A stretch of DNA of 64,000 nt. Origin: Clytia hemisphaerica. Taxonomy: Eukaryota > Cnidaria > Hydrozoa > Leptothecata > Clytiidae. This document shows, one piece after another, positions 7,267 through 43,650 of the stretch (the first letter of the stretch is position 1; the number at the start of each line of letters is the position of its first letter). Made by a program: the position numbers and the translations under genes. A model generated the notes under the pieces. It was given only the letters and a program-made list of their open reading frames with translations, did no database searches and was not told the origin of the DNA. The stretch spans positions 499,536-563,535 of the forward strand of contig CACVBU010000956.1 in assembly GCA_902728285.1 (NCBI GenBank), read 5' to 3'.

Positions 7267-10200
7267 ATGTTTTATAGCAAATCATCATTACTTCTTATTG
7301 TATTTCTATGTTTTGTTTATGTGGAAAGTCAAACATACCATAAAGGGGAAGTGTGCGGTGCTGGCCATTCATGCCCTTTAGATTGTGTCACCTACCCTGG
7401 TCAATTTTACTGTGTTTGCCGTCAAGCTCATATTGCCCCGGGTCCAGGCTTAACATGGAAAGAGAATTTCACAGATTGTACCAATGATTACAGTCCGTAT
7501 GGTATTCATCCTTATGAGTCAGGAGCAGTTGTTGGATTTCCATTTTTCGATTATGAGAGGCTTCCCAATGAAATGTTTACCAGTAATAACGTAAGTCGAA
7601 TTTTTAATACAGAGAACTTTCTCTCTCTCTAATAGCGCTCCGCAACGCTTACGTCATAATTATTACTTTTCACTTTTTTTGACATTTGTACGAGTTGCAA
7701 TCCCACAATTCAATGCGGCTTAATCAAAGATACGTGCAAGTTGTTATATATCTTTTGTCAAATGATGTAATTAACGTACAAAACAGATTAACGCAAAGGT
7801 TGATGGGATTGGAACTCGTACAAACACATCGAGAGTAATGATTATGTCAAAAAATAAAATCTATTTTTAGATTCAGCGCGGTGCGCTATTTGAAATTGTA
7901 TTTGATCTTTCTATAGTTCGAACTATACTTCCCGATTAAGAGGAAACCCTCGTAAAGTACTTTTTATAATTCGAACAAATTAGACTTCCCGTTGGACCTT
8001 GAATAAACGAGAGTTAACTGTATGATTGTCATAGCTTCATGGGCCCGTCAACGGTGGGGTCGGGGGGTCCATCGCCCCCCCCTACTTTTTGGTAAACCAT
8101 GTCATACGTTTTTAAGAGTTACTATTTTAAGCTGGAGACCAAATCAAACCACAAAAACTATTATTCTCCCCTAATACACAGGAAAAAATTTTCGATTTCC
8201 AAGGTTGGAAATTCAATACTTTTGGGTTGGAAATTTTGGTTTTATAATTGAAGGTTGGAAATTTGAGCGATTACCTTAAGCTGATTTGGAAAACGTAAAT
8301 TACCCATAGGTTTTGTAGAATAAACCAATGCCCTTGAAAAATCAAGTGAAAAAAACCCATGTAGAAATGACAATTTTCCAAGGCTGGTTGGAAAACATGA
8401 CTTTTTGGGTGGGAAATTTTTATTTTCCAAACAGTTTGGGAATCGAAAAAAAAGGTCAAAAATCGATGTGAAAATACATATTTTAGTAAATTTGATACCT
8501 CAAGTTGAAAAACTAGACTTTTTGGGTCGGAAATTTGTGTTTCTCCCAAACAGTTTGGAAATCGTTAAAAATCCATGTGGAAATTACATTTTTCTGAGAT
8601 TGAGACCCTTTCTTGGAAATTTAGACTTTTTGGGTTGGAAATTTGTGTTTCTCCAAACAGTTTGGAAAACGTTAAAAATCCATGTGGAAATTACATTTTT
8701 GTGAAATTGAAACTCTTTCGATTGGAAAACTAGACTTTTTGGGTTGGAAATTTGTGTTTTTCCAAACAGTTTGGAAAACGTTAAAAATCCATGTGGAAAA
8801 TACATTTTTGTGAAATTGAAACTCTTTCGATTGGAAAACTAGACTTTTTGGGTTGGAAATTTGTGTTTTTCAAAACATTTGGAAAACGTTAAAAATCCAT
8901 GTGGAAATTACATTTTTCTAACCATTTTCTGCGCATGTCCTTGGGAAAACCACAAGCGATTTTTCGCTCAAAACTGTTTTGATGTATAGCTAACCTAGAT
9001 ATTAGGTTATAATGTGAGCAGTCAAGCTGTAAGTTTCCGTCAGGTGAGGCGTCTCTTCGGAGCGGCCTCGGTCAATCGCAGTGAGTTCGCACAGTGAAGC
9101 ACATAGGGTACTTGTGTCATAGTTTCAAATAGCGCCCTGCTGAGCTGTGTGAGTGATCTAAGATCAACCACGTATCTGTGCGAACAATAACGAGAGATTG
9201 ACCGGGAGCCATCGAGCCTAGGCTAGCGAGTGACTGTTCACAAAAACAAAAACCTTGTTAAGATCTCTTTCCACATCTCTGCCATCACTTTTTGGATTTT
9301 GGCTTTTTTCAACGTGAATTTTAAAAAATTCCAACCTTGTTAAATTTGGATTTTGGCTTTTTTCAACGTGAATTTTAAAAAATTCCAACCTTGTTAAATT
9401 TGGATTTTGGCTTTTTTCAACCTGGATTTACGAAAATTCCAAGCCATGGAAAATGCAAAATTTTCAACCTTGGAGAATGTCCCACATTTTCAGGTTGGAT
9501 TTTCCATTGGATTTTATCTTTTTTCCAACTAAGAAAACTTGAAATTTCCAACCTTGGAAATCGAAAATTTTTTCCAGTGATAGATTGTTTTGAAGATATA
9601 AAAAGTGAAAAATTTTCTTTGTCGCCCAACCATGGTGGGCGACATTTTTTTCCAAAATGTTGACCCCCATATGTTGGCCCCCTTAATCAAAATGGCTTGC
9701 CGGGGCCCACGAGGTTGTTTTATCATACTGTCACTATACCAATTGAACAAAAATTCAAAGGAGCTTATTTTAACAGAACTAATTACCTCGATGTGATGGT
9801 ATTGAAGCGGTATATTTTGCGGGACTTATTCGCACTGTCGACCCTCAACTTTCAAAGGTTTTCAAATTTTTGAAACCTTAAGTGATACAAAAATTATTGT
9901 AACTGCACTTTAAATTCTTATTTCCTATTACTGGTTTTCTGTCTACAGTTTCATCACTCAAATTTCAGAGCCATTTCATTCGTTCTCGTTCTTAAAGTTC
10001 TTAAAGAATCTTGTAAATAATGATACTTTATCATGCTAAAATCAGTTTAAACTAATTTTAGTCTTAAACATTTTCTCAGGTTTATCAAGATTTTTTACCT
10101 CGTAATGCTCGTTTGAATGCCAATGAGAACAACAAAGGTTCCTGGTGTGCTCCTGGTGATTCTACTGAATCGTGGCTCATGGTTGATCTTGGTAATGTTT

Positions 10201-13200
10201 CAACCATATCTGCAGTAGGTTCCCAAGGAAGAGCTGGCGTCAGCGTTGTCTTTGCTGCCAAGACATACAAGTTACAATGGAGTACAGATAATGTGACCTG
10301 GCATTATTTGGAAGACTCTGGTTCACCAAACATTTTCCCAGGCAATGAAGACGGAGATACGATTGTTTACAACTTCATTGTTCCGCATTTGAAAGCGCGT
10401 TATTTGAAGTTTATACCGATTGAATACAACAATCTGAAGTGTATGAGGTAACAGTTTTATTCTTATATGAATAATTGTATAGTAAGTCAATTATATTTTA
10501 ATTAAAACACATGGGATTAAAAATTCGGACAAAAATCGTCCCTGATGAGAATTACTACGATAGTATAAAACTTACCGGATTTCTGTGCTAAAAATAAGGA
10601 AGTTGAAATTCTCACTCAATTAAATGACAAGAGGTTTTCCTTCCCTATTTGCTTTTAGAAAAATCAGTTATCAAAATAACTAAACAATTCTTACTTCTTT
10701 AATGGGATTAATTTTCGCGGGGATTACATTTCGCGGATTTCGTCGATTTGGAAATTTGAAAAGGTCTTATCCGCGAAATTCTTTTAATTAAATTTCAGAA
10801 AATGTCCTAAGACCACTTTTATCATGTTTACCGCCATCAAAGAAGCGCTAATAGTGTGTATTTCACAACCAACATGCATAGTAAACCACTCAAAAAAAAT
10901 TAAAAAGTCTCTGAAATTACCAGTGTTCAAAACACTGGCGTAAATCTTAAAGTTTCACTTTTTCACTTTTTCTTGCCTTTTTAACCTTTTTTGTCCGCTG
11001 ACGTTTTGACGTTTTGATGCTCCTTATTAAACTAGGTATACTATGTATCCTATGTGCTCTTATCTTTTCATTGATAGAGTCGGAGTGCTTGGTTGGAAGA
11101 ATGTGAATGAATGTGAGAACGGTTGGAACAGATGTGATCCATTGGCCAAATGTACGGATACTGTGGATTCTTATTATTGCACATGTCCAGTTGGTTATCA
11201 CGATGCTTTGTACAACGGTTTCTTTTGTGTGCAAATCAACGAGTGTATCGAAAGAAGACCTAGTTATAAACATAATTGTAGCCATCTTGCAACCTGTACT
11301 GATTATGATGGTGGCTTCAATTGTGACTGCAATCCAGGTTTGTATTTTACCTTTCGTTTATATTTTTCATAAATTTGAGTAAGGCGAATAGTATTCGGTC
11401 AATCTTTAGAATCCTTAGCATCTTTCGTGAGACGCAACCGCATGTGACTGGTTCAAAAGTATATATGATTTTAAGACTTTTTGAAAGGGGGCCCGCAAAT
11501 TAGGCCTTGCTGTAGGCAAAACTCCTAACCAAGATAGATAGGTGGAAAGTTGACAATTTTTCAAAGTCGAACTAAAAGAAAATGATTGGATACAAAAAAA
11601 AAGTATACTACAACAAATCAACAAAATTCTTTCAGATGGAGTATGATTGACATCAAATTTTGTCTGACAGATTTCAGATAATTTTAAAGCTTTCAGGGTG
11701 TTTGAGTACAAGACTCAGTATACTTTTTTTTCTCAGAAAGTCATGCTCTATCCTATTTTCCAGTTTTGTAAAAAAAGATAATTCTAAATTGAAAATTTTG
11801 CATATATGATGAGAATAACTGGAAGTATATCGTACCCCCTTTTTGTTTTGAGTTGTTATCGATCTTGTTCGGTTGGCCAGAGAACTCCATTGTTATTAGA
11901 ATTTGTCAATAATTTCCGCATTATCCGTTCAGGTTTTCGTGGTGATGGTTATTACTGCGAAGATGCTATTGAATGTGAGATGACACCACCTGCAAATCCT
12001 GGGTATTGGTGCAAACCACTTGCTGATTGTATCAACACTTTTGGCAGTTACGAATGCAGATGCAAACTTGGATACGACGGTCAGTAGTTTGTGCAGTTTG
12101 TCAACATCGAGAATCGGCATGACTGACACTGAAATTTTTTTCAATTACGAACTGATTTTAGAGGGGCTTAAAAGGGTTAAAACCCGTACGTCTTTCACGC
12201 TTTTATCTCTCATTGTTACCAAACTAATTTCTCTGGATAACTGTTTCTTCTAGTTAGGATGAACGAAGCAAGGAAAGGGTTGAGGAACAAAAAGTAAATA
12301 AACCAGCCGAGGCTGGAAGGTCAGCCAATAGAGCTTAGCTAGATAGCTTTAATAAGTGGGTTAACAGATGTAAGAGATGCACTGAAACAGAGTAGACTAA
12401 ATATGTTGAATTGTACAAAATGTGAAACATTTGATAACTTGATTTAAAATTATGTAAAACAAGCCTGAGAGCTCCTCCAGCCCCTCCCCCCCCCCACGAG
12501 AAGCTCAAAGTATACTTCTCTTTAGCATTGTCCCTATAGTACGTACGCAAAGATTTTCCAAATATTTGACACCCCCTCCCCCTTGTACGCAGAGAACAAT
12601 AGAAATGATTTTGTTTAAACAATAGATGTACGCTTTTGCTAAACCCCCTCTCCTCCCTTCACTGTGTACGTACTATATAAATGGCCCCTCCAGTCTGGGT
12701 AAATAAATTTTGTAGTTTAGTACCCTCAAGTTACACAACATGCACACAACCATCTGAAGACTTTGCTGGTCGCAAATGATAATCGAAAGCAAAACTTAAA
12801 ATTCATAACTATGCGGGGAAGCTCATTTTCCCCCCGTTTTGCTTTAAACTCGCTTTTGATTGGTCTATGAATTTGGGCGATTGATTTACCGCCTTGGCGG
12901 AATAAACACACAACCATAATAAATAAATTCAACAGGGCAGCGGTGTAGCAATTAATTTCAACTGGGAGTCCTCTCTTCTGTGCCAAGCACTGGCAGTGTT
13001 TTTTAAACTTTAAAACAATGTTAAATGAAGACCAGATTGATCTGTTTGTTATGGCTGTTCAATTTGTGACGAGAGTGTGCATGTTGTGTAACTTGACGGC
13101 AGCCCGCTTTCTGCAAGTCTGATAAGAGATATCTATAAACTGTTATCGCCATTCATTCCATTCCATCATTCAGTCAAAATGTGCGCCAAGGTTAGAAAAG

Positions 13201-16200
13201 GTTAGAAAAACACAATCTGCGTCCGGAACTACGTGAAAAATAGTTTGATCAATTTCAACAAGAACTGTATATATTAATATTAATATAATTGATCAAATTC
13301 CAAAGACCATTTGTCATAATTTTGCAGTCCAATAATAGGAGATTGTGATGTGTCATCATTTGGTTCCCGTCATCTGATTTACGGTCAGCAGGTAGAGCTG
13401 GAGAGTCGGAAAGCTTTTCCGCTGCTTTGCTGGATTTCCACTGTCGACCTCTGCACGCTCTGTGTTTAAAAGTTTTCAAATCGAAGTAGAGAGTCGCATG
13501 CTAATGGAGAGTAAACCGAAAACACCAGTTCCACGGTTTCTCAATTTTAAAATTCGGATCAGTCCACACGAATTCCCTTTCAACAAGATGTATAGCTGCT
13601 TCTTAACAGAAAAATATTTTCGACTGACCGGCCGAACGACTCCCACTTTTTAAAGTAGAAATGACGGGAACCAAACAGTTTTTTGCGATTCGCCTTTATC
13701 ACAAACACGTCCAAGTCTAAAAAAGCACGATTGCATCCAGTCTTTATATCAAATTTATACAGTAGCTGTACTTTTGTAAACTTTATCAAATTCCAATAAC
13801 ATTATAACACCATCAATTCCCCTAGAGGCAAACAAGAAAAATATGTTTTATTGCAAAAAACTATTTAAAAAGCAGCAATAAAAAAGTATCGAAAAATTCA
13901 ACATAAACAAAAACTTGAGCAAACGGCTTTAAACCTTCAAAGGATGTAGAAAAAGAAGCCCCTTGATGAAAATCATGTGTTTGATTTGCCGAGTTAAAAA
14001 AATAAATGACAGAAATTGAAGCTTGCAACAGATTTACACTGGAAATACTTTGGTACAACCCGGGGGGGGGGTACTTAGGCAAAAATAGGTGCTGGGTATG
14101 TGCGGACGGTAAGGGTCGGGTTTTTCACCTTTCAAAGTCTCTCTAAGGGTTACAAAAATCAGGAAATTTCAAAGTAGTCTCTCTAAGGGTGGGAAAAATC
14201 ACGATTTTTAGAAAAAAAATTTGATTTTGAGAGAAAAAATTACAAAAAAGTCTCACTAAGTGTAGGAAACTTTTGAAAATCAGAGAAAATTTTTCGAAAA
14301 AGTCTCTCTAAGGGTCACTTTTTCACTAAAATTTGGTCTCTCTAAGGGTCGGTTTTCGGAGGTCCCGTCCGCACATACCCCTCATTCACCAACCCTAGTA
14401 ACGCTAAAAGTACCCAAAAAGTTAACCCGATCGGAAGAAAGTTTAGTAATCAAAGTGAGATCGGAAAATCGGATTTTTTTTTTGCCGTCTTATGGAGGAA
14501 CTGGAAAATTTTTACCTATTTGAATGCTCAGCTTAGGCTGACCAATTATACTACCTTAAGGGAACTTTTTTTGGTGAGAACTTATTTTGGCGAATCAACG
14601 ATTTTTTTAATTTCGGCAATAGAACTTAATTTGGCGAATGACAGCGTAAATCTGTTCTATTTTGCCTTATTTCAAGCTTTTATTTTTGTGAGCTCAAAAG
14701 TTATTTAGGCCAAATACCAAAATTTTTAATTTTGGCGAGAACTTATTTTGGCAAACCAACGTTGTTTTTTTTATTTTGGCTTGAACTTAATTTGGCGAAT
14801 GACCTAAAAAATTAATTTTGGTGGGAACTAAATTTGGCGAATTTCGAGTTCGCTCGCCAACTTCGCCAAAATTAGTTCCTCGCCAAAATAAGATTCCTTA
14901 AGGTAAATTTAATTGGGTGGCCAGCCTACATTATTTACCTCTTGCTTCCGTAGGCAATCCGGATGATTGCCAGGACGTCAACGAATGTAAGAAGATCAAC
15001 AACTGTTCGCCAGAAGCCAAATGTGAAAACACCATTGGTAGTTATGTTTGTAATTGCCGTACTGGATATGCTGGTGAGTCTATTCATTACAATAATATTC
15101 TAGATCATGATCTGTTAGTTTCCTCTAGAAGAAGGGAGAAAGTTATCAGTAATAAGATGCCGGGCATGATGTAGGCTGCACGCATCCCCTCTGATATGAT
15201 TTGATATAGGGGATGCGTATCGTCTAAAATATGTCTGTCCAAACTTACCCCCATCTTTCCTTTTTTCTTTTTTGATTATGCGGCATAGCAATACAATGAC
15301 TTCTTTTTTTACTTTGTTCAATGAATGAAAATTGATAATTATGAAAACACCAGCACAATGACTTAATTTTTTTCTTTCTTTGATTGGATGTGAAGAAATA
15401 ATTTAAATTTATGCAAAATTTACCCCAAATTTGAGGTAACTCTCGGACGAGAATTTCATACACGATACGCATCCCCTATAACAAAATAAATTCTGGGGAT
15501 GCGCGCAGCCTAGGCATGATGCTGTCTGTGCTGTGGTGATAGAACACCAAAAGAATTGAGCTCACCTTTCATTCAACAATCATATTGCGAAATATTTGTA
15601 TTTGGTATCAATTTCAGGTAGTGGTTTCTATTGTTCGGACATTGATGAATGCGAGAATGACCCATGTCATGAACAAGCAGTTTGTGGAAATACGCCGGGA
15701 AGTTACTCCTGTATTTGCAAGACCGGGTTTAGAGGTAGTGGAAGATGGTGCGAAGATATCAATGAATGCGCTGAAAGCAATAATTGTAAAACTGGTAAGT
15801 TGTTTTGCTTCTTTTATTAAATTACTCGCTCGATAGACCTTACCAGATCTAGAGAACTCGACACCGTGTGCTCTAGGCTGAATAGAAAACCTGATGGTTT
15901 TGCAAAAAGATTTTGAGCACTCATATTCGTAAACCAATACCTTAAGGGAACTTATTTTGGCGAATGACAGCGTAAATCTGTTCTATTTTGCCTTATTTTG
16001 AGCAATTTTGATGAATTTCAAGGGTTATTTAGGCAAGGAAACAAAAAATCTAATTCTGGCGGGAACTTATTTTGGTGAGTGAGCAAAATATTTAATTTTG
16101 ACGGGAACTAATTAAACTTAATTAGAAAGAAAATATTAGGTACTCGAACTAGTCATTCGGAATGTATATTGTCGTGTTTTTTACGTTTGTAGGTGAGCGT

Positions 16201-19200
16201 TGTGTGAATTATGACGGGGGTTACAATTGCATTTGTCCAAAAATCATGCCTGCACAACGTCCTTATCTTGGAACGGAGAGAGATATCTTGGACAAGGTTA
16301 TCATGAATTTGCGTAATGGATCCAGTGAAGATTGGAGACATCCGTTGGACTATCACGCGCACATTGTGCGGACCATTTATCAGCTGGTCAATCGCACTTA
16401 CACCTACCATTTTAAAGAAGTGACACACTCTTTTTTCTATACGTTCACTGCTGGAAATCATACTTCAATCGAGCTATACGACATTCGATGCAGCGATTTG
16501 GCCAATGTATCTTTCCCCAATATGTGTCACAACATGTATGAGAAAACAGTGTTCAAACAATTCACCGATGTCGTTGATATGTGGCTCATTGAAAAAGCAG
16601 AAGAACCCTTTGAAAATTGGGCAACTCCGCCACCGCCCACCCCGCCCCAGGCTGAAGAGGCTGACCCAACCAGCACATCCACCACCACCACTTCAACGCC
16701 CATTCCCACCGGTATTTGGAACATCAATGGTACAAATGTTACTTACGATATCACTACAACTCTTCCACCACCATATCGCCAATGCGGTGGCTATTTTAAT
16801 GATACGAACGGCGGCACTATCGTTTCACCAGGTAATGATTAATCTCCTCTTTTTTCAACAGTACTTTTTATTGCTCTATTACAAAGTGTTGCAGTAAAAA
16901 AATTTTATCGGTTCGCTATGGCCTAGAGAATTTGTAACGGAAGGTAAATAAGGTACGTCGCTGATCAAAGCATCTCGACGGCAGCTACGCGTTTTCAACG
17001 TGACACAACTTAAATATTTTTTGTTTGCAGGTTATTTCACTCAGAGAAAGTATCCAGCGAACGCATATTGCGTTTGGATCTTAGAAGCACCAGAAGATCA
17101 CAGTGTTTATGTCAAGTTCGAACATTTCGAAATGGAAGAATCTAAGAAATGTTTCTATGATAATGTAGAGATCAGGGATGAATCAGAGACAGGAGAATTC
17201 AAAGCAAGGTATGTAGTTGTTTCTATCTCATAGAACTCTTTGGAGCCTACAATACTGGCCAAAAGTAATGGAACTCCTCACTTTTTTGGTATGAATTCAC
17301 AAGTTCCCCCTATACCCCTCTTATACAATGTTGAATTTCAGTCCAACTTGACTCAGCAACATTGTAGAGAGGGGGAGGGGAAGAGGAGCCATAAAAACAG
17401 TAGAATAGGTGGAATTCCATTTACATTTCGCCAGGATTGTATATCAGGGGGGATCGGGTTCAATAATCCGAAATGATAAGCCGTCGTCGAACATAGAGGT
17501 CGTCGTCGCCGCGCATAGAGGCTGTGGTCGGACATAGAGGTCGTCACCGGACATAGAGGTCGTGGTCGGACATAGAAGTCGTCGTCGTTCATAGAGGTCT
17601 CAGCCCAATTTTTTTCGGTCTTTATTTTATAAGTTCTGGTCCGGAAATTTGACAACACAGTCTTCAAAATAACACCTTATCGTATTTGTGTATAGCAAAG
17701 TCACGGCAGAACGTCATCTTCTTCGATAACATAGAGGTCTTGGCCGGACATAGAGGTCGTCGTCGAACATAGAGGTCTTGGCCGGACATAGAGGTCTTGG
17801 CCGGACATAAAGGTCGTCGTCGAACATAGAGGTCTTGGCCGGACATAGAGGTCGTCGTCGAACATAGAATTCGCCGGGGCGGTTCGCATCAACGAAGGCG
17901 GTTTATCTGGCGGGGTGGTTCTTGCTCAGGGTGGTTTTTGCGAAGCGAATATACATGAGCGAAGCAGTTTTGCTATCGTGTGCATGTACCTTTAAATTCT
18001 ATATACCAGGGGAGCGCCAAGGAAAACTTGATGTGCGTTTTCTACGGTACCGAAAACATCATTTCGATCCCTCAGGCGGCACTTTCTCATACATTTCTAT
18101 CCGTCGCTTCCGTAAATTTGGAACAATTGGTTTTTAGTGTAGAGGATGTATACCAGATCTAAATAGTTACGGAGATAATCTTCGGGCGAGTTTCTGTTAT
18201 GATTATCTCTCTAATGTTTAAATTAAGAAATTTAAAGAAGAGATCGGAAAATCAGCGCGGGCTGGAAGCGTCCAAGAAGCGTTCAAACGCTATAAATTTA
18301 TAAGCCAATCGCCAAAATTAATTCTCGCCAAATTTAATTTTCTTTCACACTAGTCTCTATTTCTTTTAAAAAATGCTATTTTCATCATTTTTCAGCTAAA
18401 ATATTGAACAAATAATATGCAGCTCGCCGAAATTGATTTTCGCCAAACTTAGAAATCTTATTAAATCGCCAAAATGAATTCCGCCAAATTGCACCTAAAT
18501 TCATTCGCCAAAATTTCTTCTCTTAAGGTATCTTTATTTAAGAACGTCAAAAAGTTTTGTAAGTTTTTTACGTTTAAACTTTATTTTTAGCAAGTGTAAA
18601 CCTTTTCTTATGTTAGTTACTGTCACAAGAAGAAATTGTTTTACTGTTTTAGACATCAAATTTTTGTCCAATTCATCATCATTTGCATGTGTATTTTACA
18701 AACTGGTCCTAATTTGCTTAGCCTTAGATTTTACGTCTCAGGACTGAAAATTACTTTTGACTTATTAAAATTAAAACTTATTAAAAGGTACAATAGTTTC
18801 GGAAAATTTTACAAACTGGTCCGTTTAGTACTAAATACCACCTAGAACCGTTTTTCGGTATATTTTGCCTTAATTTAAATTTAAACTGAATTTCCAGGGT
18901 GCTTTCCTATTTCAACAAATAGGAAATAGGTGGCTGAACTAAAATTTTGTAAATCAACTTATTGGCAAGCCCAGGAAAAACAGCGGATTGATCTAGAAAA
19001 ATACTTGCGGTACACATTTTTTATAAGCAACCGGGCTGCTAAGGGCTCAGGCCTCAAAATGGCCCAAAAAAAATAAGTAATTTGCTTATCAGGGGGGATC
19101 GGGTTCAATAATCCGAAATGATAAGCCGTCGTCGAACATAGAGGTCGTCGTCGCCGCGCATAGAGGCCGTGGTCGGACATAGAGGTCGTCGCCGGACATA

Positions 19201-22200
19201 GAGGTCGTGGTCGGACATAGAAGTCGTCGTCGTTCATAGAGGTCTCAGCCCAATTTTTTTCGGTCTTTATTTTATAAGTTCTGGTCTGGAAATTTGACAA
19301 CACAGTCTTCAAAATAACACCTTATCGTATTTGTGTATAGCAAAGTCACGGCAGAACGTCGTCTTCTTCGATAACATAGAGTCTTGGCCGGAAGAGGTCG
19401 TCGTAAAACATAGAGGCCGGGACATAGAGGTCGTCGTAGAGGTTCTTGGCCGGACATAGAGGTCTTGGCCGGCCATAGAGGTTTGGGCCTCGAGGTCGTC
19501 GAACATAGAGGTCTTGGCCGGACATAGAGGTCTTGGCCGGACATAGAGGTCGTCGTCGAACATAGAGGTCTTGGCCGGACATAGAGGCCGTCGTCGAACA
19601 TAGAGGTCTTGGCCGGACATAGAAGTCACCGTCGAACAACGGGATCATTAGCCTGGAGGTCACTTAGAGCTTTTTGATAGACTGGATGACGCAGATAAGT
19701 GGCCATTCTGATTTTTATTCTGCCCAGCCAGACTCTAAAGTCGTCTGGAAGATTTCAGATGTTTTGGAAATTAATCAATGATCAATGAATGGGGTGATGA
19801 TTTTTTTTTCAATATAAGTCATTGTAGGCATTTCTGTTGGTTCTTCGCTTCGTTTTTAGCCAAACAAGCTCGACGCTCGCTAATGCTTCTTACTCGATGT
19901 CTTGAAATTGCCATCGAGCGCGAAATAAGAAGCAAGCGAGCGTCGAGCTTGCTTGGCTACTTCGTTTTCAACTCTAAAAAGTTTTTTTGTTATTTTGAAA
20001 TTTTGGTCAAAATGGCGTTTGCGTCAATATCATTTTTCGCTAAGGATTTTTCGAAATCCAGGAGGGCAAAAGATTTTCAAACTTAAAATAGTTGAAAAGC
20101 ACAATTTTGAATTTTTCGACAATTTTTCAATTTAAATGGACAGTAAAGGCATCTTTCGAATGTTTGCAAGGCTCTCTTCTAAAATTGTGCCCGATTTTTT
20201 TTTATTGCTGAGGAAAAAAAGTTGCTACATGCTAGTTTGGATTTGAGGCGTCAGGATTGCTAAGCAAATTGCTTAATTTTTTTGGGCCATTTTGAGGCCT
20301 GAGCCCTTAGCAACCCGGTTGCTTATAAAAAATGTGTACCGCAAGTATTTTTCTAGATCAATCCGCTGTTTTTCCTGGGCTTACCAATAAGTTGATTTAA
20401 AAATTTCAGTTCAGCCACCTATTTCCTATTTGTTGAAATAGGAAAGCACCCTGGAAATTCAGTTTAAATTTAAATTAAGGCAAAATATACCGAAAAACGG
20501 TTCTAGGTGATATTTAGTACTAAACGGACCAGTTTGTAAAATTTTCCGAAACTATTGTACCTTTTAATAAGTTTTAATTTTCAAAAGTAATTTTCAGTCC
20601 TGAGACGTAAAATCTAAGGCTAAGCAAATTAGGACCAGTTTGTAAAATACACATGCAAATGATGATGAATTGGACAAAAATTTGATGTCTAAAACAGTAA
20701 AACAATTTCTTCTTGTGACATAACAGTAACTAACATAAGAAAAGGTTTACACTTGCTAAAAATAAAGTTTAAACGTAAAAAACTTTGAAAGGTTGAGAAC
20801 ATATCTAAAGGCTTTAACAAAACTTTTTGACGTTCTTAAATAAAGATACCTTAAGAGAAGAAATTTTGGCGAATGAATTTAGGTGCAATTTGGCGGAATT
20901 CATTTTGGCGATTTAATAAGATTTCTAAGTTTGGCGAAAATCAATTTCGGCGAGCTGCATATTATTTGTTCAATATTTTAGCTGAAAAATGATGAAATAG
21001 CGTACCGTACCGTAGAAAACGCACATCAAGTTTTCCTTGGCACTCCCCTGGCTCATGTATATTCGCTTCGCAAAAACCACCCTGAGCAAGAACCACCCCG
21101 CCAGATAAACCGCCTTCGTTGATGCGAACCGCCCCGGCGAATTCTATGTTCGACGATGACCTCTATGTCACTATGTCCGGCCAAGACCTCTATGTTCGGC
21201 CAAGACCTCTATGTCCGGCCAAGACCTCTATGTCCGGCCAAGACCTCTATGTTCGACGACGACCTCTATGTCCGGCCAAGACCTCTATGTCCGGCCAAGA
21301 CCTCTATGTCCGGCCAAGACCTCTATGTNTTTTTTCTATACGTTCACTGCTGGAAATCATACTTCAATCGAGCTATACGACATTCGATGCAGCGATATCG
21401 CCAATGTATCTTTCCCCAATATGTGTCACAACATGTATGAGAAAACAGTGTTCAAACAATTCACCGATGTCGTTGATATGTGGCTCATTGAAAAAGCAGA
21501 AGAACCCTTTGAAAATTGGGCAACTCCGCCACCGCCCACCCCGCCCCAGGCTGAAGAGGCTGGCCCAACCAGCACATCCACCACCACCACTTCAACGCCC
21601 ATTCCCACCGGTATTTGGAACATCAATGGTACAAATGTTACTTTCGATATCACTACAACTCTTCCACCACCATATCGCCAATGCGGTGGCTATTTTAATG
21701 ATACGAACGGTGGCACTATCGTTTCACCAGGTAATATTTAATAATCTCCTCTTATTTCAACAGTACTTTTTATTGCTCTATTAAAAAGTGTTGCAGTAAA
21801 AAGTTATCATCGATTTGTTATGGCCTAGAGAATTCCCAAAAAGGTCCTTTACCCCTTTTTCTAACGGAAGGTAAACAAGGTACGGCGCTGATCAAAGCGA
21901 CTCGACGGTAGCTACGCGTTTTCAACGTGACACAACTTAAAATAATTTTTGTTTGCAGGTTATTTCACTCAGAGAAAGTATCCAGCAAACGCGTATTGCG
22001 TTTGGATCTTAGAAGCACCAGAAGATCACAGTGTTTATGTCAAGTTCGAACATTTCGAAATGGAAGAATCTAAGAAATGTTTCTATGATAATGTAGAGAT
22101 CAGGGATGAATCAGAGACAGGAGAATTCAAAGCAAGGTATGTAGTTGTTTCTATCTCATAGAACTCTTTGGAGCCTACAATACTGGCCAAAAGTAATGGA

Positions 22201-24471
22201 ACTCCTCACTTTTTGGTATGAATTCACAAGTTCCCCCCTATACCCCTCTTATACAATGTTGAATTTCAGTCCAACTTGACTCAGCAACATTGTAGAGAGG
22301 GGGAGGGGAAGAGGAGCCATAAAAACAGTAGAATAGGTGGAATTCCATTTACATTTCGCCAGGATTGTAGTATCTTTTATTAATCATAGGAAAATCATGG
22401 GAAAAATTTAAATATAATAGCTGCATTCTTTTTTTTACAAATTCGTGATTTTCTTTAGATATTGTGGCGATGGAGTAGTCTACAAGCCTGCAGTTCGTTC
22501 AGGTCGCCGTAAACTAGCTATCATCTTTTTCTCTGATATGCAAACCGAAAAGCGTGGTTTCAGAGCTATTTGGAGGACACTTAAACCGCGCGTCTCCTTA
22601 GCTTGTGTGACGTACAATCAGATGAGTACCATGCCACATGCAAAAGCAATCAAATGGCAAGAAGAAATTGAAGAAGAGAAAGATAAATCACAATATGTAC
22701 CCATCTCTCGCCTCTTGGCTTGTAAACAATATCCAAAGTGTAATCATGAACGGCCAGGTGACGTCATTTTCACGTTCGAACACATCCGAACTGATCGCAA
22801 CGTCAAGAAATGTGTTCATTGGATGTTAGAAAAGATCGGGACTTCGTATGCTGAACGACCTTGTGATATCATTAAAACTAATAAAACTCATACTATCTGT
22901 TCGTGTTATTCATGGGGCATCGTTGCTGTGCTTGGTAAATTCGCAAGATGGAGTCCAGATGCTGTAACCACCTTATTCGAACTTGGCGCTAATTCGTTCC
23001 TGTCTGTTCTCTTCGTTATCTTGGCACTGCTTTTCACGCTTGTGTTTTTGTTCTTGAAAGATCAATGGGGTGCAGTCATCATGGAAGTTTTCACTATGAA
23101 AGAATATGATTCTGGTCGCATTATTCAAATGCACATCGTTTTCAACAATTTACTGACCGAGATTTGTTTCTCAATCATTACTTTCAATGTTACTCCTGGT
23201 CCAATCTCATGTTTTGTACTGGCTTTCCTCTTCTATTACCTTCTACAGACTGTTTTCTTCTGGCTCTTCATTTACACCTTGTTCCTGCAAGCTCGTGTTA
23301 GTGAAATCTTCGACAGCGAAAAATACAATTCGTACAAATTGTATATGTTCGTTGGATACGGGTTACCTTTCTTTGTTACTTTGACTTTGTCTGGATTGAA
23401 TTTCACCACAGATGTTGAGGAGAAGGTCTGTTGGTTGTTGTTCAGTGGAAGTACTGTATGGGGATTCTCCGGTGTCATCGTCACTCTTGGTGTTGGCTCA
23501 TTGACTATCCTCCTCATGACTATCTACCAAGCAAGAAACATGGAGAACGGAATCTTGTTACAAGAGAAATGCATACGTACACTCTTCACGCAATTTTTCG
23601 TGCTTCTAACCTCTGTCTTTGGTGCAATCGCGCTGCAAGATCGAAGCTTTTTAGCTGAATATTGTTTCTCGTTATGTAATCTGTTACAAGGTTTCTCAAT
23701 CGCCATTATGTATTGCGTGTTGAGACGTGAGGATCCGATTATCAAGGCGAACCAGATCGGACCGTTACCAGATTGGGGTCAAGGAAATGATCAGAAATTT
23801 GAGGATTATCGTGCTGAGTTTAAAGATATGGGGAGCGATGCAGAGAGTAGTGAAGATGAAGATGAAGAGAAGGATAACGAAGGAGTGAATGAGGAGGAGA
23901 ACGAAGAACAGAATGGAGATGAGAAGGAGCAACCAAAGAAGAAGAAATATAAACACGTTCGTGATGGAAGTGTCATCTTCTTGCAATTGAGAGATCCAGA
24001 TGCGGATGAAGATGAAGGTAGGTCGATGAAGTGTTCTCGTGTCACTCCTTTGTTGTTTTCATGCTATAAATTTCGACTTGAATGCTTACCAAAGTACTGT
24101 ATTTACCATAGGGCTATAGGAATCTATAAGATATTAAGTTTTATAACAGTAAAGAGACACCGTGTATTGTGATGGAGCATTATGGTATTTGTCAAAAACC
24201 AGTTTGAAATTTAAGAATTATTTCATAATAAGCTTATAAATGTACTAACAATATTTCTACAGGTGATGATTATGAACGTCCATACGAGACTCAGCCCATA
24301 TTTTCAACGGCTCCAAAGAAAGAGGAGCAAAATATACCAACACAACCGACCATCATTGAGGAATCATCTGATGCACCCACAATGAATCGATTCTTCGTCA
24401 ATCAAGGTTTTAGTGATGATGAGTCGGACCAAGAAATTGATTTCAGATTCGATGAAATTGGACAATCATAA
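7267..24471 (+). CDS. Adhesion G-protein-coupled receptor with F5/8C, EGF-CA, CUB and GPS domains
   Basis: Exons: 7267-7590, 10080-10447, 11078-11337, 11933-12079, 14954-15073, 15618-15794, 16193-16831, 17031-17208, 22459-24017 and 24263-24471. All have GT-AG borders, all phases agree, and the sum is 3981 nt (1326 aa). Order: signal peptide (about 1-21); short Cys-rich EGF-like piece; discoidin/F5-8C (about 87-235, ending RVGVLGW); six EGF-CA repeats with (V/I)NEC or IDEC starts (to about 480); a mixed region with a PPPPTPP and Ser/Thr linker; CUB (about 664-780) with four Cys and YDNVEIRD; a short GAIN-like segment; GPS (CVHW ... CSCYSWGIVAVL). Seven hydrophobic helices follow (about 912-1160) with class-B/adhesion marks CWLLF and LQGFSIAIMYC. 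The cytoplasmic tail is long and acidic. Role inferred: cell-surface adhesion receptor. The GPS lacks the usual His-Leu-Thr/Ser cleavage triplet, so self-cleavage is doubtful. Partial duplicates of two exons lie at 21330-22137. Confidence 0.9.
7632..7892. mobile_element. Palindromic MITE in GPCR intron 1
   Basis: The ends aatagcgctccgcaacgc and gcgcggtgcgctatt face each other. An inner pair (acgagttgcaatccca against tgggattggaactcgt) is also inverted. About 260 bp with no coding content. Confidence 0.6.
8177..9579. mobile_element. 1.4-kb CACTA-like non-autonomous element, intact copy
   Basis: The left end CACAGGAAAAAATTTTCGAT and the right end, complement of atcgaaaattttttccagtg, form terminal inverted repeats that extend through 'ttccaaggttggaaa'. 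The element is flanked by ATA on both sides (8174-8176 and 9580-9582). The interior carries a tandem array of ~109-bp units, a GC-richer core (about 9010-9240), then repeats of ttggattttggcttttttc. Many ORFs in it are repeat artefacts with no transposase. The CAC terminus and 3-bp duplication suggest CACTA/EnSpm, by inference. A second copy in the same orientation lies at 58070-59763. Confidence 0.75.
8390..8915. repeat. Tandem repeat, about 109-bp unit, 4 copies
   Basis: Units begin at the phrase aaactagactttttgggttg (about 8505, 8620, 8730, 8838) and include tttggaaaacgttaaaaatc and a run ending gaaattacattttt. The homologous array at 58390-58915 has about five units. Confidence 0.8.
9600..9715. 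repeat. Right part of a host repeat split by the CACTA-like insertion
   Basis: Matches 52427-52508 (shared cgcccaaccatgg and cttgccggggccca). The left part lies at about 8135-8175 (gaccaaatcaaaccac ... attattctcccc), matching 52358-52392. The 8177-9579 element therefore inserted into an older repeat. Confidence 0.7.
12724..13098. mobile_element. MITE with 22-bp perfect terminal repeats in GPCR intron 4
   Basis: TCAAGTTACACAACATGCAC at the left and its complement (gtgcatgttgtgtaacttga) at the right bound about 375 bp with no coding content. Confidence 0.7.
13360..13674. mobile_element. MITE with TTGGTTCCCGTCAT terminal repeats
   Basis: TTGGTTCCCGTCAT at 13360 and ATGACGGGAACCAA at 13661 are perfect inverted repeats. 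The same ends bound the element at 48844-49293, which defines a family. Confidence 0.65.
14062..14415. mobile_element. MITE with 'gtgcggac' inner palindrome and repeated 'tctctctaaggg'
   Basis: gggtatgtgcggac and gtccgcacataccc face each other near the ends, and outer ggggtactt and aagtaccc complete the inverted ends. The interior has several agtctctctaagggt units. Similar words occur at 4350-4380. Confidence 0.6.
14552..14905. mobile_element. MITE with TACCTTAAGG terminal repeats and 'ttttggcga' interior
   Basis: TACCTTAAGGGAACTT at the left and the complement of ATTCCTTAAGGTA at the right; the interior is tandem (a/g)aacttattttggcgaa. Related pieces occur at 15940-16120, 18290-18530 (inverted at 20845-20965), 25005-25225 and 57928-58055. 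Confidence 0.65.
15172..15512. mobile_element. Mutator-like MITE with 9-bp target duplication
   Basis: Terminal repeats begin TAGGCTGCRCGCATCCCC and extend about 55 bp (inner ataggggatgcgtatcg). Identical 9-bp flanks GGCATGATG lie at 15163-15171 and 15513-15521. 341 bp, non-coding. The 9-bp duplication is typical of MuDR/Mutator, by inference. Confidence 0.85.
15938..16130. repeat. Truncated copy of the TACCTTAAGG / 'ttttggcga' family
   Basis: Starts taccttaagggaacttattt and continues with gcgaatgacagcgtaaatct, matching 14630-14660. No right-hand terminal repeat is visible. Confidence 0.55.
16431..17439 (+). repeat. First copy of a ~1-kb near-identical duplication inside the GPCR gene
   Basis: From ttttttctatacgttcactg to caggattgta this block recurs at 21330-22370 with scattered substitutions and small indels. 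It carries the 3' part of one GPCR exon, the following intron, the CUB exon and part of the next intron. Protein differences are only Leu/Ile, Asp/Gly and Tyr/Phe; the CUB exon proteins are identical. Copy 1 is the one joined to an intact upstream exon. Confidence 0.9.
17495..17872. repeat. 19-bp minisatellite, array 1
   Basis: Units alternate between ggacatagaggtcttggcc and gaacatagaggtcgtcgtc. Because 19 is not a multiple of three, the array is open in every frame and yields repetitive false ORFs. Confidence 0.9.
17710..19086. repeat. Left arm of a large inverted repeat
   Basis: Its complement lies at 20258-21328. Matched landmarks include gaattcgccggggcggttcg (17867), ggaaaacttgatgtgcgttt (18024), acaatagtttcggaaaattt (18789) and gggctcaggcctcaaaatgg (19043). 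The left arm has about 330 bp (about 18055-18385) absent from the right arm. Confidence 0.85.
19115..19640. repeat. 19-bp minisatellite, array 2 (with preceding direct repeat)
   Basis: 19087 onward (tatcaggggggatcgggttc) repeats 17440 onward nearly exactly, then the same 19-bp units continue with more decay and partial units around 19380-19500. Confidence 0.85.
19859..19957. repeat. Hairpin, ~33-bp arms
   Basis: gccaaacaagctcgacgctc is answered by gagcgtcgagcttgcttggc, with taatgcttctta answered by taagaagcaagc. The loop contains its own short ctcgatg/catcgag pair. It sits in the spacer between the large inverted arms. Confidence 0.8.
20258..21328. repeat. Right arm of the large inverted repeat
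   Basis: Reverse complement of 17710-19086 apart from the ~330-bp missing segment near 21000. It ends in the 19-bp minisatellite (21135-21328) and abuts the N at 21329. Confidence 0.85.
21329..21329. other. Assembly ambiguity (single N)
   Basis: The only non-ACGT base in the window. It sits exactly at the junction between minisatellite and duplicated exon sequence. Confidence 0.99.
21330..22137 (+). pseudogene. Duplicate of GPCR exon 7 (3' part) and CUB exon, probably the other haplotype
   Basis: 21330-21731 repeats the last ~400 nt of the 16193-16831 exon without its acceptor or 5' part. 21960-22137 repeats the CUB exon with intact acceptor and donor. The CUB exons enter in phase 1 and leave in phase 2, so they cannot be spliced to each other in frame; either could join 16831 to 22459. 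A single N at 21329 marks the assembly join. The simplest reading is two alleles concatenated. The alternative is a real tandem duplication with one truncated copy. Confidence 0.8.
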
Positions 24472-26343: not shown

Positions 26344-27840
26344 TCAGATCATGGGATGGCCGGTGCGTGGTGTATCGATACCTTTATGGCGAATGACGGC
26401 TGACCCATCCACATTCTCAATGCTGTAACTCCAATCTTTGAAAGCGTCATTTTGTAAGCTCTCGTGACAAGCATCTTCTACAAGCTTGGCCGGTATGTAA
26501 CAAGGTGCATCTGGACCGTACTTACTCAGGGCCCTGTTGTACCTGGTAATTTAGAGATAATTAAATAGTTTAATTAAAACTTAGTTTAATTAAATTTTTG
26601 CTTTCTTGATCTGCCCGTTTTTCGAGTTTTTCAATTCGTAATCTTTTGATTTTTAACTGCTTTAATTTCTGTGAAATTTTAAGGGTTGTACCTAGAGATT
26701 AGTTTTGATAATTTACTACGATCCTCAGTGCTCAGTGAAAAGTACCCCTCAGTCCAGGCAACTTTTGTTATTTTGTTTAGCTAGATCAAATGTACTTAAA
26801 TGAGTTACAGTAATATTTTCACTCCGTGAAGAGGCAACAAAAAGTCAGGAACATTCCATCAAAGCTGATATATGAGACCGACAACTAATCTATTCCCATA
26901 AAATTAAGTTTCAAATGAAAACCTTTTTTTCTAAACTTTCAGGTATGGGAAACTAGGAAGAAGGAAACGAGACTTACATTTGTTGAACGTGACCGAGAAG
27001 TTCGATGGGTACACCAAGTCGTCGTGCGAAATCATGCACCAGCTGATTGTCCTTGCAATGTAAATCCAGTGTAAAAGATGGATCATAAGTCCCTTGACAA
27101 ATCATGGGAACTGCTGTTTCAAAAACAAAGCTGTTTCCAGTGGAAGCTCTAAAGGCGTCAAAAGTAGTTTTTTCATCCATCCCCGCGCGCTTGCAAATGA
27201 TGAGAGCTTCAGCAGCTGCAATACAAATCATGGATGCGAAAGTGTTTGAAATGGCTTTCGGGATAAGGGCCGTACCAAGTGGTCCGGTAAATAACACATT
27301 GTGGTAGCTAGCATCAAGGATTGGTCTAATGTATTCAAAGACGTCTTTTTCACCAGCCACCAATGTTGTCATTTGTCCCTTCTTTAACGCCTCCAATCCA
27401 CCCGTCACAGGGGATTCTAGTAAATGTCCACCCTTATCATTGACTAGTTGCGCAAAATTTTGCGTTTGTTCATAATCTGTCGTTGAATGGTCGATCCAGA
27501 TTTTATGCTCCTTGATGCCTTGTAAAATGCCGTCTTCACCCTCAAAGGCGGATTTGATATGGGGTGGCTTAGGAAGGGCGGTTACTACTATATCAACATC
27601 TTCAACTAAGGCGCGTGGGTTGGGCGCTAAGGTGGCGTTGAAACTTTCACATTTTGAAGTATCGAGATCAAGAATGGAAGTGACGTTGAATTTGTGTTTT
27701 TGTAGATTCTTGATGACGGCGTTTCCGACTTGTCCCATGCCGATGATACCGACACGAAGTTCGTTGACTGGCCGGTCTGTACATAATCCTCTTTTGAAGG
27801 CTTTTTGAAGTAATAATGGTAATCTAGTTTGGCTGAACAT
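26344..27840 (-). CDS. 3-hydroxyisobutyrate dehydrogenase-like oxidoreductase
   Basis: Two exons on the minus strand: 27840-26978 (863 nt, phase 2) and 26542-26344 (199 nt, stop TGA), making 353 aa. The first ~35 residues (MFSQTRLPLLLQKAFKRG) are basic and hydrophobic, like a mitochondrial targeting peptide. The Rossmann motif GIIGMGQVGNAV follows, then the family substrate loop ESPVTGGLEALKKGQ and the catalytic-Lys segment GTALIPKAISNTF. The last places a Ser where many relatives have the first Asn of an NN pair. The C-terminal all-alpha domain is continuous. Known role of the family: NAD(P)-dependent oxidation of 3-hydroxyisobutyrate (valine breakdown) or related beta-hydroxyacids. The exact substrate cannot be read here. 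No PWWP domain is present, so it is not a GLYR1/NP60 protein. The frame is open to 28044, but Met at 27840 best fits a targeting signal. Confidence 0.85.
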
Positions 27841-28562
27841 ATTTTCGAATTCTTTCAATCTACTATAATTAAAAGAAGTTAAAGAAAACAACATAAGACA
27901 AATTGTTTCAAACTCACTGGAATGATAGGCCAAGAAGATGTCTCTGTGCGAAAAATATTCTGTATTCATTACCATTAAAATCCTAAGAGCTTGGCAATTC
28001 CACCTGAAGTTTTTACCCGTACAAAAAACACCCATATAAATCAAACGTATAAAAAAATAAGAATGGTTTCAATCCCCATTTTCTTCAGCCCCTTTTTATC
28101 GCCATGGAAAAATAAGTTCCACAGGGTCACTGAGACAGGGATACGAGTATAAAAACACGCGAAAATGATACAAAGACTGACATCTGAAAAATATAGATCT
28201 AAAACTGCCTCATAAAATTCATTCCCATTTTATCAAAGTAAAATTCTCTCGTTGGAAAGGAATACAAGACTTAGAAATAAAGTGAAGGATTTTTGATTTC
28301 TTTTGTTTTCTAAAGAAATTTTGTACGACATGTTCAACAACAGTTTCTACTACAAATTTGCAAAGGGTTATTAATATAAAATAGACAGATATTCCTCTTT
28401 TATTAAGATAGTTTTTTACAAAGACAAAAAATTTTAAATAACAAATTAATCAAAAAAGTGATACTGTAGCAATTTATTCATTAAATTTTCAAAGATTTTT
28501 TCTACATTTTGAAATTCTACATGATGGTAGTCAGAAACATCTGGAACGTAATAGACGTAAAC

Positions 28563-40786: not shown

Positions 40787-41815
40787 TTGAATCCCCAAAT
40801 CCAATTTTACCTGCCCAAACTTCAAGACCGGCGGCAGAAGACACATCAGCAGAATTCCTCTCTTGATCATGCAACAGATTCACGTAAGACCACCCAAGAA
40901 TTTTCACCACCCCAGCTTCACCTCGTTGCGAACACCACCCATTCGTTTTACACACCACCTCCAGCCGACAGCAACATCCACGTTTTGCTGCCATCCACCA
41001 ACCCCCTGCAGCGATCCCAGCACCAGTCACACTACGTCGTCCTGCCACCATGTTGGATCCTCTTCTAACTAGGCCTCCAATAATGACAAGAAGCCAGCAA
41101 TCACAGGAAAACCATCTAAACAGCCTTGCGCCATTAATCGCTCAACTTACAAGTTAGTTGAGGAAAACTTCTGAACAACAACAAAGAAGCCTCCGCCATG
41201 CCGCTCAATTGGTGGCGTCCCTCGAGCCCGTCGTCGGGATCGAACGCGAGTTTTGTAGACCCTTGGCTGCCGGTCCATCAGCAAGACACGTCACATATCC
41301 ATAATGGCCTTTTCGAAGCTCCTTTACACGTTCCAGCCGTCCAGCAACAATCGTCATTGCTTCCGCCTGCGCCTGCGCCTGCAAGAGTTATTCAACGAAT
41401 TCAACGCAGTGAGTTTATTAATCTCAACTCCCTTCTCCCCCAGAACATAAATGATAAGGACAAAAAGTCGCTGGAGGTTCTGGTTGATGGGGATAGCCTC
41501 AGCCTTGCACAAGATGATGCCTGGAATGATACCCAAAGGACTACAAATATAAGGTGATTGACATGCAATCGTGACTCCTAGCTTGGACTCTGTTTATGCA
41601 AATTTTTCTTTTTTACCGTCCTCATTTAACGGAGCAGCTGATTAGGTACCAGCAATTCATTTCAAACCTGGCATATACCCACAACTTTGGCACATGGTAT
41701 GCATATGATCAGGCATTTAGACACCATGTTGCAAACAACCCATTGGAACGTTGGGACCAGTCAAACATCTTAATTTTTAACCTACACGTCAGGGGCTCCC
41801 AAGGAAGGGGTAATT
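40787..41815 (+). pseudogene. DIRS gag-like region, broken
   Basis: Pro/Gln/Ser-rich frames (from 40787 and 41198), followed by a frame to 41818 with LIRYQQFISNLAYTHNF and WYAYDQAFRHH, a pattern typical of DIRS ORF1 products. The ORF is split by stops and a frame change near 41557-41596. Confidence 0.6.
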
Positions 41816-41824
41816 GTTAGTTTT

Positions 41825-43650
41825 GTGGGGGGTCCGACCATCTGCTTTCCAGTTGCCCTAGGCGGGCTTCAGGGTGGGCAGCGCCAGTCTTCATTCCCAC
41901 GCCCCCAGATAGCCCAAGCCGCAGGAACATCAGGGGAAGTGTGCTTCAGGTACAATCAGCTCAGGGCCTCTCATGCTCAGGTTGCACCCGCGTCCTCAAG
42001 TGCCTCGCTTGTGGCATGGACCATCCCATCATCCGATGCCTCCGCGTTGCCAGAGGGGGCAACTGAGTCACTTGGGAATCCTTCCTCCCAAGAGCTGGAC
42101 CTTCTCTCAGAGGCAGCATTCCCTCCCCACGTTGGTGTTTTTTCCCCTATTCTTGTTAATGCTCTTGATTTTTTACTTTGTGGTTATGACAGTTACATCC
42201 ACTCATACTTAGTTTCAGGTTTTCGTAACGGTTTTCATGTTGGTTTTTCTGGCCCTCTTCCAACTAACTCTACAACAAACAACTTTTCAGCATCACTCAA
42301 TGAGGAAGCTATCTCCACAGCCATTGTCAAGGAACTAAAACGTTCACACACTGCTGGTCCTTTTGCATCCCCTCCCCTTTCCAATCTCAAGTGTTCCCCT
42401 ATTGGCGCAGCCCGTAAGAAAGATGGCACTCAACGCATAGTCCTTGACCTCTTATCCCCTTGCGGTTTCTCAGTCAATGATGGTATCCCAGCAGAAGAGT
42501 GCTCTGTCCATTACACCTCCTTTGCCGATGCTATGGAGATGGTTAGATTGCTTGGCAAAGATTGCTTTCTCGCTAAGGTCGATCTTAAGCACGCTTTTAG
42601 ACTTTGCCCTGCCCATCCTAATGACTGGCACTTACTGGGCTTCAAATGGAGGGGTAAGTATTATTTCGACATGTGTCTTCCATTTGGCATGAGATCTTCA
42701 CCTTTTATTTTCACTTGCTTGGCTGACGCTTTGCTTTGGATCCTGGTCAACAAGTTTTCTATCCACAGTATCTGTCACTACCTGGATGATTTTTTATTAG
42801 CAAGCCACTCCCTCCAGGACTGCTTACTTAAACGGGATAAGTTTTCCTAGCTTTCTCCTTGCTTGGTGTCCCCATTTCGGAGGACAAGCTGGAAGGCCCA
42901 GCTCAAGTCCTCACTTTTCTTGGTATCAAAATTGATGTTCAGGCTTCTACTTTGAGACTTCCTTTACCAAAACTTACAGAATTGCGTGGCTTAGTTCTTC
43001 TTTGGTCCACTCGACGCAAATGTATTAAACGAGAACTGTTATCATTGATTGGCTCACTTTCCTTTGCTTGTCGTGTTATTAAGCCCGGAAGGATTTTTCT
43101 CAGACGTCTTATTGATCTTGCTCACTAAGTTGGCTCTCTGCATCATCACATTGACATCTTGGTCTCAGTTAGGGAGGATCTTGCCATGTGGTCTGTGTTT
43201 CTACAGTCTTGGAACGGATGTTCTTTTTTCCAGCAGCCAACTACATCTTCTTTTGCTCTCGATTTGTTCACTGATGCTTCTAAGCTGGGCCTTGGAGCCT
43301 TCTTCCACAATCAATGGATTTCTGAACCCTGGCTAGATGACACGGTAGGTATCAACATCGCTCTCCTTGAGTTGTTTTCTGTTTTCACAGCCATCAGCAC
43401 ATGGTCAAACCAGCTTCAGCACAGGTCCATCTGTGTCTTCACGGACAACAAGGCTATTGTTACAATATGGGCATCAGGTTCCTCTAAGGATGCGGTTTTT
43501 TTGGCACTTATGCGTTCAATGTTCTTTCTCTGCACTTGTCACAATATTTCCATCTCCTTTAAGCATGTCCCAGGTGTTGATAATGTCTACACAGATCTTC
43601 TCGGTTGCAGGTCAATCATTTCTTGTCAATTTGCCCTTCTGCACATCCGC
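41825..43650 (+). pseudogene. DIRS reverse transcriptase and RNase H, frameshifted
   Basis: The first frame runs to a TAG at 42848-42850 and carries RT motifs KKDGTQRIVLDL, KVDLKHAFRL, LPFGMRSSPFIF and the catalytic box HYLDDF. Reading continues in another frame (LTFLGIKIDVQASTL, then LIGSLSFACRVI). After a stop at about 43126-43128 the RNase H follows in the 43159 frame (FTDASKLGLGAFF, FTDNKAIVTIWASG, HVPGVDNVYTDLL). At least two frame interruptions mean it is not functional as assembled. Confidence 0.85.

Follow-up and report, generated by a model that had tools for sequence, protein, structure and literature searches.

Why some adhesion GPCRs (aGPCRs) stay uncleaved, and how far their signalling dispenses with the tethered agonist, are described as open in the text of a 2026 review of the family (PMC13197933). 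A gene of the hydrozoan Clytia hemisphaerica bears on both questions. It lies in a 64,000-nucleotide stretch of DNA (the window; GenBank assembly GCA_902728285.1, contig CACVBU010000956.1, positions 499,536 to 563,535 of the forward strand) that was analysed as a whole, and a natural receptor from which the cleavage residues, the agonist consensus and the toggle are missing together, as they appear to be here, would be a clean test case. What kind of receptor does this gene encode, can it be cleaved, and how might it be switched?

Gene model, domains and doubled exon block

The gene occupies positions 7267 to 24471 of the window on the forward strand, and in the splice model both the start and the stop fall exactly where the first-pass annotation had placed them. 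The spliced frame encodes 1,326 residues in 10 exons, with 9 GT-AG introns and no internal stops. In a Pfam-A search of the whole protein, EGF_CA (E 1.7e-36), CUB (residues 663–774, E 5.3e-21), F5_F8_type_C (residues 110–227, E 9.6e-20) and 7tm_2 (residues 959–1152, E 1.4e-12, 47.9 bits against a cut-off of 20.6) all score above their cut-offs, so that the long N-terminus carries the adhesion modules F5/8C, EGF_CA and CUB. The best 15 of 52 PDB rows are chains of ADGRL3, D1, L2, E5, E1, L4 and G6, and secretin-type receptors rank below them. The closest solved structure is that of ADGRL3, which aligns across the GPS and the 7TM region (E 2.5e-21). Hydropathy runs are observed for TM1–TM3 and TM5–TM7; TM4 is below the threshold and was placed by alignment. 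Because of the Pfam E-values and PDB matches, chance similarity is excluded, and judged by its sequence the gene product is an adhesion-type (class B2) GPCR, as had been proposed.

Exon 1 (7267–7590; splice model, hydropathy and cysteine list) encodes the signal peptide, a hydrophobic stretch at residues 1–20, and a six-cysteine EGF-like module (C30, C36, C40, C49, C51 and C71) whose spacing was recognised by eye and which reaches only E 0.4 with Pfam EGF_CA. The bulk of the F5/8C (discoidin) domain is found in exon 2 (10080–10447; PF00754), and its nearest PDB structures are factor V-type and factor VIII C domains and neuropilins. Its edge lies in exon 3 (11078–11337; splice model, Pfam, PDB and cysteine list), together with EGF 1 and most of EGF 2. 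EGF 2/3, EGF 3/4 and EGF 4/5/6 are carried by exons 4 (11933–12079), 5 (14954–15073) and 6 (15618–15794), respectively, as assigned from the splice model and Pfam along with the cysteine list for exon 4 and a motif scan for exons 5 and 6. Exon 7 (16193–16831) reads in one continuous frame from the end of EGF 6 through a segment at residues 485–612 (16249–16632) and a Ser/Thr/Pro linker into the start of CUB. The middle of CUB, for which the nearest PDB structures are cubilin and neuropilin-1, is encoded by exon 8 (upstream copy, 17031–17208; splice model, Pfam and PDB). Exon 9 (22459–24017) then carries, again in one continuous frame, the end of CUB, a short pre-GPS segment, the GPS, the seven membrane segments and the start of an acidic tail, and exon 10 (24263–24471; splice model) the end of the cytoplasmic tail and the stop codon. 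Each of exons 4–7 is of phase 1-1, as is typical for extracellular modules spread by exon shuffling.

Pfam reports EGF_CA in seven stretches at a loose threshold. By cysteine count, five repeats are complete (residues 243–451) and EGF 6 (residues 457–480) has five cysteines, the next being Cys565. The F5/8C, CUB and 7TM regions listed by the first-pass annotation are borne out by the Pfam and PDB matches, but its six EGF-CA repeats become five plus an incomplete sixth, and its domain order lacked both the EGF-like module ahead of F5/8C and the 485–612 segment ahead of the linker. This segment has no assigned domain: no Pfam family is matched in residues 480–614, the sole PDB match of residues 485–612 is at chance level (E 0.94), and AlphaFold2 returned a mean pLDDT of 46.3 from single-sequence input. 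It holds two cysteines (Cys565 and Cys577), and the partner that the five-cysteine EGF 6 lacks is possibly located here. F5/8C and CUB folds bind ligands, and calcium EGF repeats form a rod. The modules suggest a predicted role in adhesion.

Of the nine splice junctions, only 9/10, in the tail, is away from recognised domains; the other eight are within one or at its edge. Junctions 1/2 (residues 108/109) and 2/3 (residues 230/231) are covered by several PDB alignments of the discoidin domain, that to neuropilin-2 (residues 95–234) among them, the Pfam match being confined to 110–227. Junctions 3/4, 4/5, 5/6 and 6/7 fall between EGF-repeat cysteines, and 7/8 and 8/9 fall in CUB. Because of this placement, a split of the EGF and 7TM halves into two genes is unlikely; with the single open frames of exons 7 and 9, which lead from EGF 6 into CUB and from CUB into the GPS and 7TM, it becomes very unlikely even before RNA is considered, and the earlier description of a single, fully phased gene stands.

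Part of the gene is present twice in the window, a feature that had been missed. The doubled block spans about 16431–17441 and 21330–22371, the join being marked by a single N at 21328. As determined by sequence comparison, the second copy, also on the forward strand, contains part of exon 7, intron 7, exon 8 (21959–22136) and the start of intron 8. Between the two copies, 7 of 579 exon bases are different. In exon 8, the differences (2 of 178 bases) are both silent, so that use of either the upstream or the downstream exon gives an identical protein. In the exon 7 part, there are five substitutions in four codons, three of which are protein-changing (Leu-Ile, Asp-Gly and Tyr-Phe). The copies of intron 7 differ at 18 of 199 positions with 29 gap columns, whereas the start of intron 8 shows 0 differences in 232 positions and 2 gap columns. 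The block is probably the other haplotype left uncollapsed, with two haplotypes joined in one scaffold, and it leaves the protein unchanged except at the three exon 7 sites. Tandem exon duplication as a biological event was considered and rejected: the second exon 7 copy starts mid-exon beside the single N and lacks an acceptor. The single N and the doubled block inside the gene could also be taken as a sign that separate transcripts carry the EGF and 7TM halves, or that the scaffold join is a false fusion. However, exons 7 and 9 each join neighbouring domains in one open frame, CUB is spread over exons 7, 8 and 9, both contigs overlap in exons 7–8 and are near-identical there, as expected of one locus, and the exon 8 copies encode identical residues. 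Two genes or a chimaera are accordingly extremely improbable. Downstream of the first copy, intron 8 contains an insertion of at least 3.9 kb (17442–21328, its right end unseen) that is absent from the second intron copy. It has long inverted arms (for example, 18380–18560 against 20817–20997, 100 percent identity) and arrays of a 19-base unit.

The stalk and the cleavage site

The region between CUB and the membrane is short and poorly matched by profiles. The GPS family (PF01825) is absent from the whole-protein Pfam list, and a 177-residue piece searched alone gives E 0.00055 and 20.9 bits, below the cut-off of 22.5, over positions 2–38 of the 45-position profile, a match that ends ahead of the cleavage triad. 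This result is a caution for genome annotation, in that a degenerate GPS can go unreported at the Pfam cut-off. Residues 839–897, which comprise the GPS and the former agonist strand (22760–22936; PDB alignments, Pfam and motif scan), align to the end of the ADGRL3 GAIN-B domain with E 7.3e-5 when searched alone, and all 4 of 4 cysteines are matched. The retained marks of the fold are the GPS cysteines (856, 873, 885 and 887), the tryptophan at S10.50 (W859), the TM3–ECL2 cysteines (989 and 1062) and the LQG of TM7.

Pfam lists no GAIN family for the whole protein or its pieces, and no hormone receptor motif (HRM), at E values up to 10, a range in which the HMMER filters discard most matches above about 0.1. 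The distance from the end of CUB to TM1 is about 135–140 residues; for HRM-GAIN-7TM receptors, about 280–330 residues between the HRM and the 7TM region can be taken from the text of PMC12716839. GAIN subdomain A does not appear in its usual place, and subdomain B would be shortened or very divergent. An AlphaFold2 model of the stalk from single-sequence input (mean pLDDT 46.1) is too poor to judge a GAIN-B fold. A stalk that is indeed this short would mean that an ectodomain and a 7TM region can do without a full GAIN domain between them.

After the CSC motif, the alignment with ADGRL3 is ungapped: CSC-YSWGIVAVLG (from 22898) is placed over CSC-NHLTNFAVLM of the 7wy5 chain, which carries HLT, the top-scoring 8jmt chain reading HLA. 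Residues Y888, S889, W890, G891, I892, V893, A894, V895, L896 and G897 are thereby paired with N, H, L, T, N, F, A, V, L and M. The cleavage triad is Ser889-Trp890-Gly891 in place of H-L/I-S/T. Both this alignment and the four matched cysteines agree with the first-pass reading of a GPS that keeps its cysteine pattern and has lost its triad. Cleavage further depends on Phe S10.49 and on the glycine in a Gly-Cys pair (PMC13062082), as well as on W S11.50 of the VWWL motif (PMC11697300). From the W S10.50 numbering in the text of PMC11697300, S10.49 is read here as the residue that precedes the GPS tryptophan. On this reading, 0 of 5 cleavage-related residues are kept: the His is replaced by Ser889, the Thr/Ser by Gly891, F S10.49 by His858 and the Gly of Gly-Cys by Pro872, and W S11.50 is without a counterpart in the alignment. 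The Leu taken as S14.50 (L896) is kept. With the His base, the Ser/Thr nucleophile, F S10.49, the Gly and W S11.50 all missing, the receptor is very probably uncleaved, a stronger wording than the earlier suggestion that it may be.

The missing triad alone is ordinary, since the H-X-S/T motif is also absent from 10 of 32 human aGPCRs (PMC13062082), and to present the non-canonical GPS as unusual was an overstatement. Among the cleavage-resistant human receptors, which include ADGRB1-3 (BAI), the same source describes an uncleaved GAIN domain in B2 and B3 and an RLS site in B1 and B3. In contrast, base and nucleophile are both gone here, together with further positioning residues.

The agonist strand, the TM6 toggle and signalling

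The tethered agonist of aGPCRs has the consensus TxFxxLM and is in direct contact with the toggle W6.53 (PMC13197933). The corresponding strand here reads GxVxxLG and retains 1 of 4 consensus positions (L896), with T, F and M replaced by G891, V893 and G897. On the other side of the contact, a loss that the first-pass annotation had missed, the W6.53 column is occupied by S1123 in the L3, E5 and L4 alignments and is a gap in the D1 alignment. The G6.50 column is L1120 in the L3 alignment and a gap in those of E5 and L4, and residues 1113–1123 contain no Gly. The exact TM6 column is less certain than the absence of the Trp. In TM7, the Gly of the retained LQG is presumably G7.50. Y1010 of TM3 takes the place of the Glu of L3 and D1, and Q961 of TM2 that of the His of L3; we take these to be class B positions 3.50 and 2.50, respectively. 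The apparent loss on both sides of the agonist–toggle contact may be the most interesting feature of this receptor, and it probably means that the usual tethered agonist does not switch it. These residue changes rest on one sequence, as orthologues and paralogues were not found and exon 9 is single-copy in the window. In prokaryotic and viral contig collections, 21 and 13 pattern matches were obtained, 0 of which were confirmed by tblastn, a result that says little on animals.

The explanation we consider rather probable is a divergent aGPCR that stays an uncleaved single chain and whose ectodomain would act without release of a tethered agonist. The binding ectodomain would consist of the EGF-like module, F5/8C, a calcium-type EGF rod, the 485–612 segment, a mucin-like linker and CUB, and a cysteine-stabilised, catalytically dead GPS stalk would link it to the seven membrane helices. 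The receptor would remain one covalent chain because the nucleophile, the base and the positioning residues for self-cleavage are gone. Ligand binding or tension on the ectodomain would then most likely steer or anchor the 7TM region, with tonic signalling or direct ectodomain–7TM contact as further possibilities; agonist release is not expected, since the agonist strand and the TM6 toggle are both altered. We infer the absence of autoproteolysis from the residue changes and, more weakly, agonist-independent signalling and adhesion to ligands in the matrix or on cell surfaces. For human aGPCRs, about half of the CTFs are described as agonist-dependent and the rest of those examined as apparently agonist-independent, and direct ectodomain–7TM contacts or tonic signalling have been proposed for the latter (PMC13197933). 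A tentative proposal, for which the chances are somewhat less than even, is an aGPCR without a cleavable agonist strand and its TM6 toggle in which CUB replaces GAIN subdomain A and the 7TM region is driven or restrained by direct ectodomain contact only.

Against action without agonist release, the agonist-strand Leu is kept and uncleaved aGPCRs can signal via their own agonist (PMC13197933). The main alternative is thus a receptor that is uncleaved and still agonist-driven: force on the CUB and F5/8C ectodomain would partly unfold the stalk, and GIVAVLG would enter a modified 7TM pocket. The AVL core with the consensus Leu is consistent with this alternative, the pocket changes could match a changed agonist, and the uncleavable receptors G5 and D1 have been reported as agonist-dependent, although for each of them the reports conflict (PMC13197933). 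However, the consensus Phe and Met and the toggle W6.53 are all missing, and we regard agonist-driven activation as unlikely. The joint disappearance of several switch residues, along with the three protein differences between the exon 7 part copies, could instead point to a gene or allele in decay, with a relaxed 7TM region serving as an anchor only or as nothing. This is quite improbable: the frame is intact across 1,326 codons, the splice sites and domain cysteines are in place, and the exon copies have diverged less (7/579 bases) than those of intron 7 (18/199), a contrast that is not uniform, as the intron 8 start shows 0/232 differences.

Known receptors and the rest of the window

Of the solved receptors, ADGRL3 provides the best GPS and 7TM match and has the GPS cysteines and the TNKTHTxCSC core in common with the Clytia protein, whereas its HLT site, F S10.49, Gly-Cys and W6.53 are absent here. 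Unlike in latrophilins, no lectin, olfactomedin or hormone-receptor domain is listed by Pfam, and CUB immediately precedes the short stalk. ADGRE5/CD97 (EGF-TM7) likewise has EGF repeats ahead of a stalk and 7TM region, and E5 is the best match of TM5–TM7 (E 5.6e-7); it differs in that its ectodomain is described as EGF domains (PMC13197933) where F5/8C and CUB are present here, and in that the cleavage site is lost here. ADGRG6/GPR126 is an aGPCR with a CUB domain, to which the CUB domain here aligns with E 2.8e-10. In contrast to the membrane-proximal position observed here, CUB is N-terminal in G6 (PMC13197933), and cubilin and neuropilin-1 are better matches.

PMC12716839 names CUB as one of the aGPCR domains, and CUB and discoidin are both reported among 37 amphioxus aGPCRs, although the text of that report (PMC2246102) does not put them in one receptor or in the order found here. 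In the sponge Amphimedon, 28 of 40 aGPCRs have a GPS (PMC4302439). Invertebrate receptors with novel domain sets or without a GPS are thus already on record. The same domain order was not found in the texts of PMC12716839, PMC4302439, PMC13197933, PMC13062082, PMC2246102, PMC6208332 and PMC11697300. The combination, singled out earlier as unfamiliar, is unmatched as an exact order within these texts; given the amphioxus CUB and discoidin receptors, it is not categorically new.

A motif scan over all six frames of the window matched its four patterns nowhere but in the receptor gene and gave no second aGPCR, a coarse result, as the scan detected only 2 of the gene's own EGF repeats. Rfam returned 0 matches at gathering scores. 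Of the 10 neighbouring long frames compared with Pfam, 3 matched a family at E values up to 0.01 and 7 matched none. Intron 1 contains a repeat family (8175–9559) with a long second copy at 58068–59763 (88–97 percent identity in the three longest segments). At 41774–44670 on the forward strand, a reverse transcriptase (Pfam RVT_1, E 3.6e-10) is found with an RNase H match below the cut-off. The frame that follows looks tyrosine recombinase-like by eye and has no Pfam match, and the element is perhaps a DIRS-like retrotransposon. Finally, an ordinary neighbour on the reverse strand (26977–28068) is a 3-hydroxyisobutyrate dehydrogenase-type frame (Pfam NAD_binding_2, E 1.5e-32; NAD_binding_11, E 2.3e-21).
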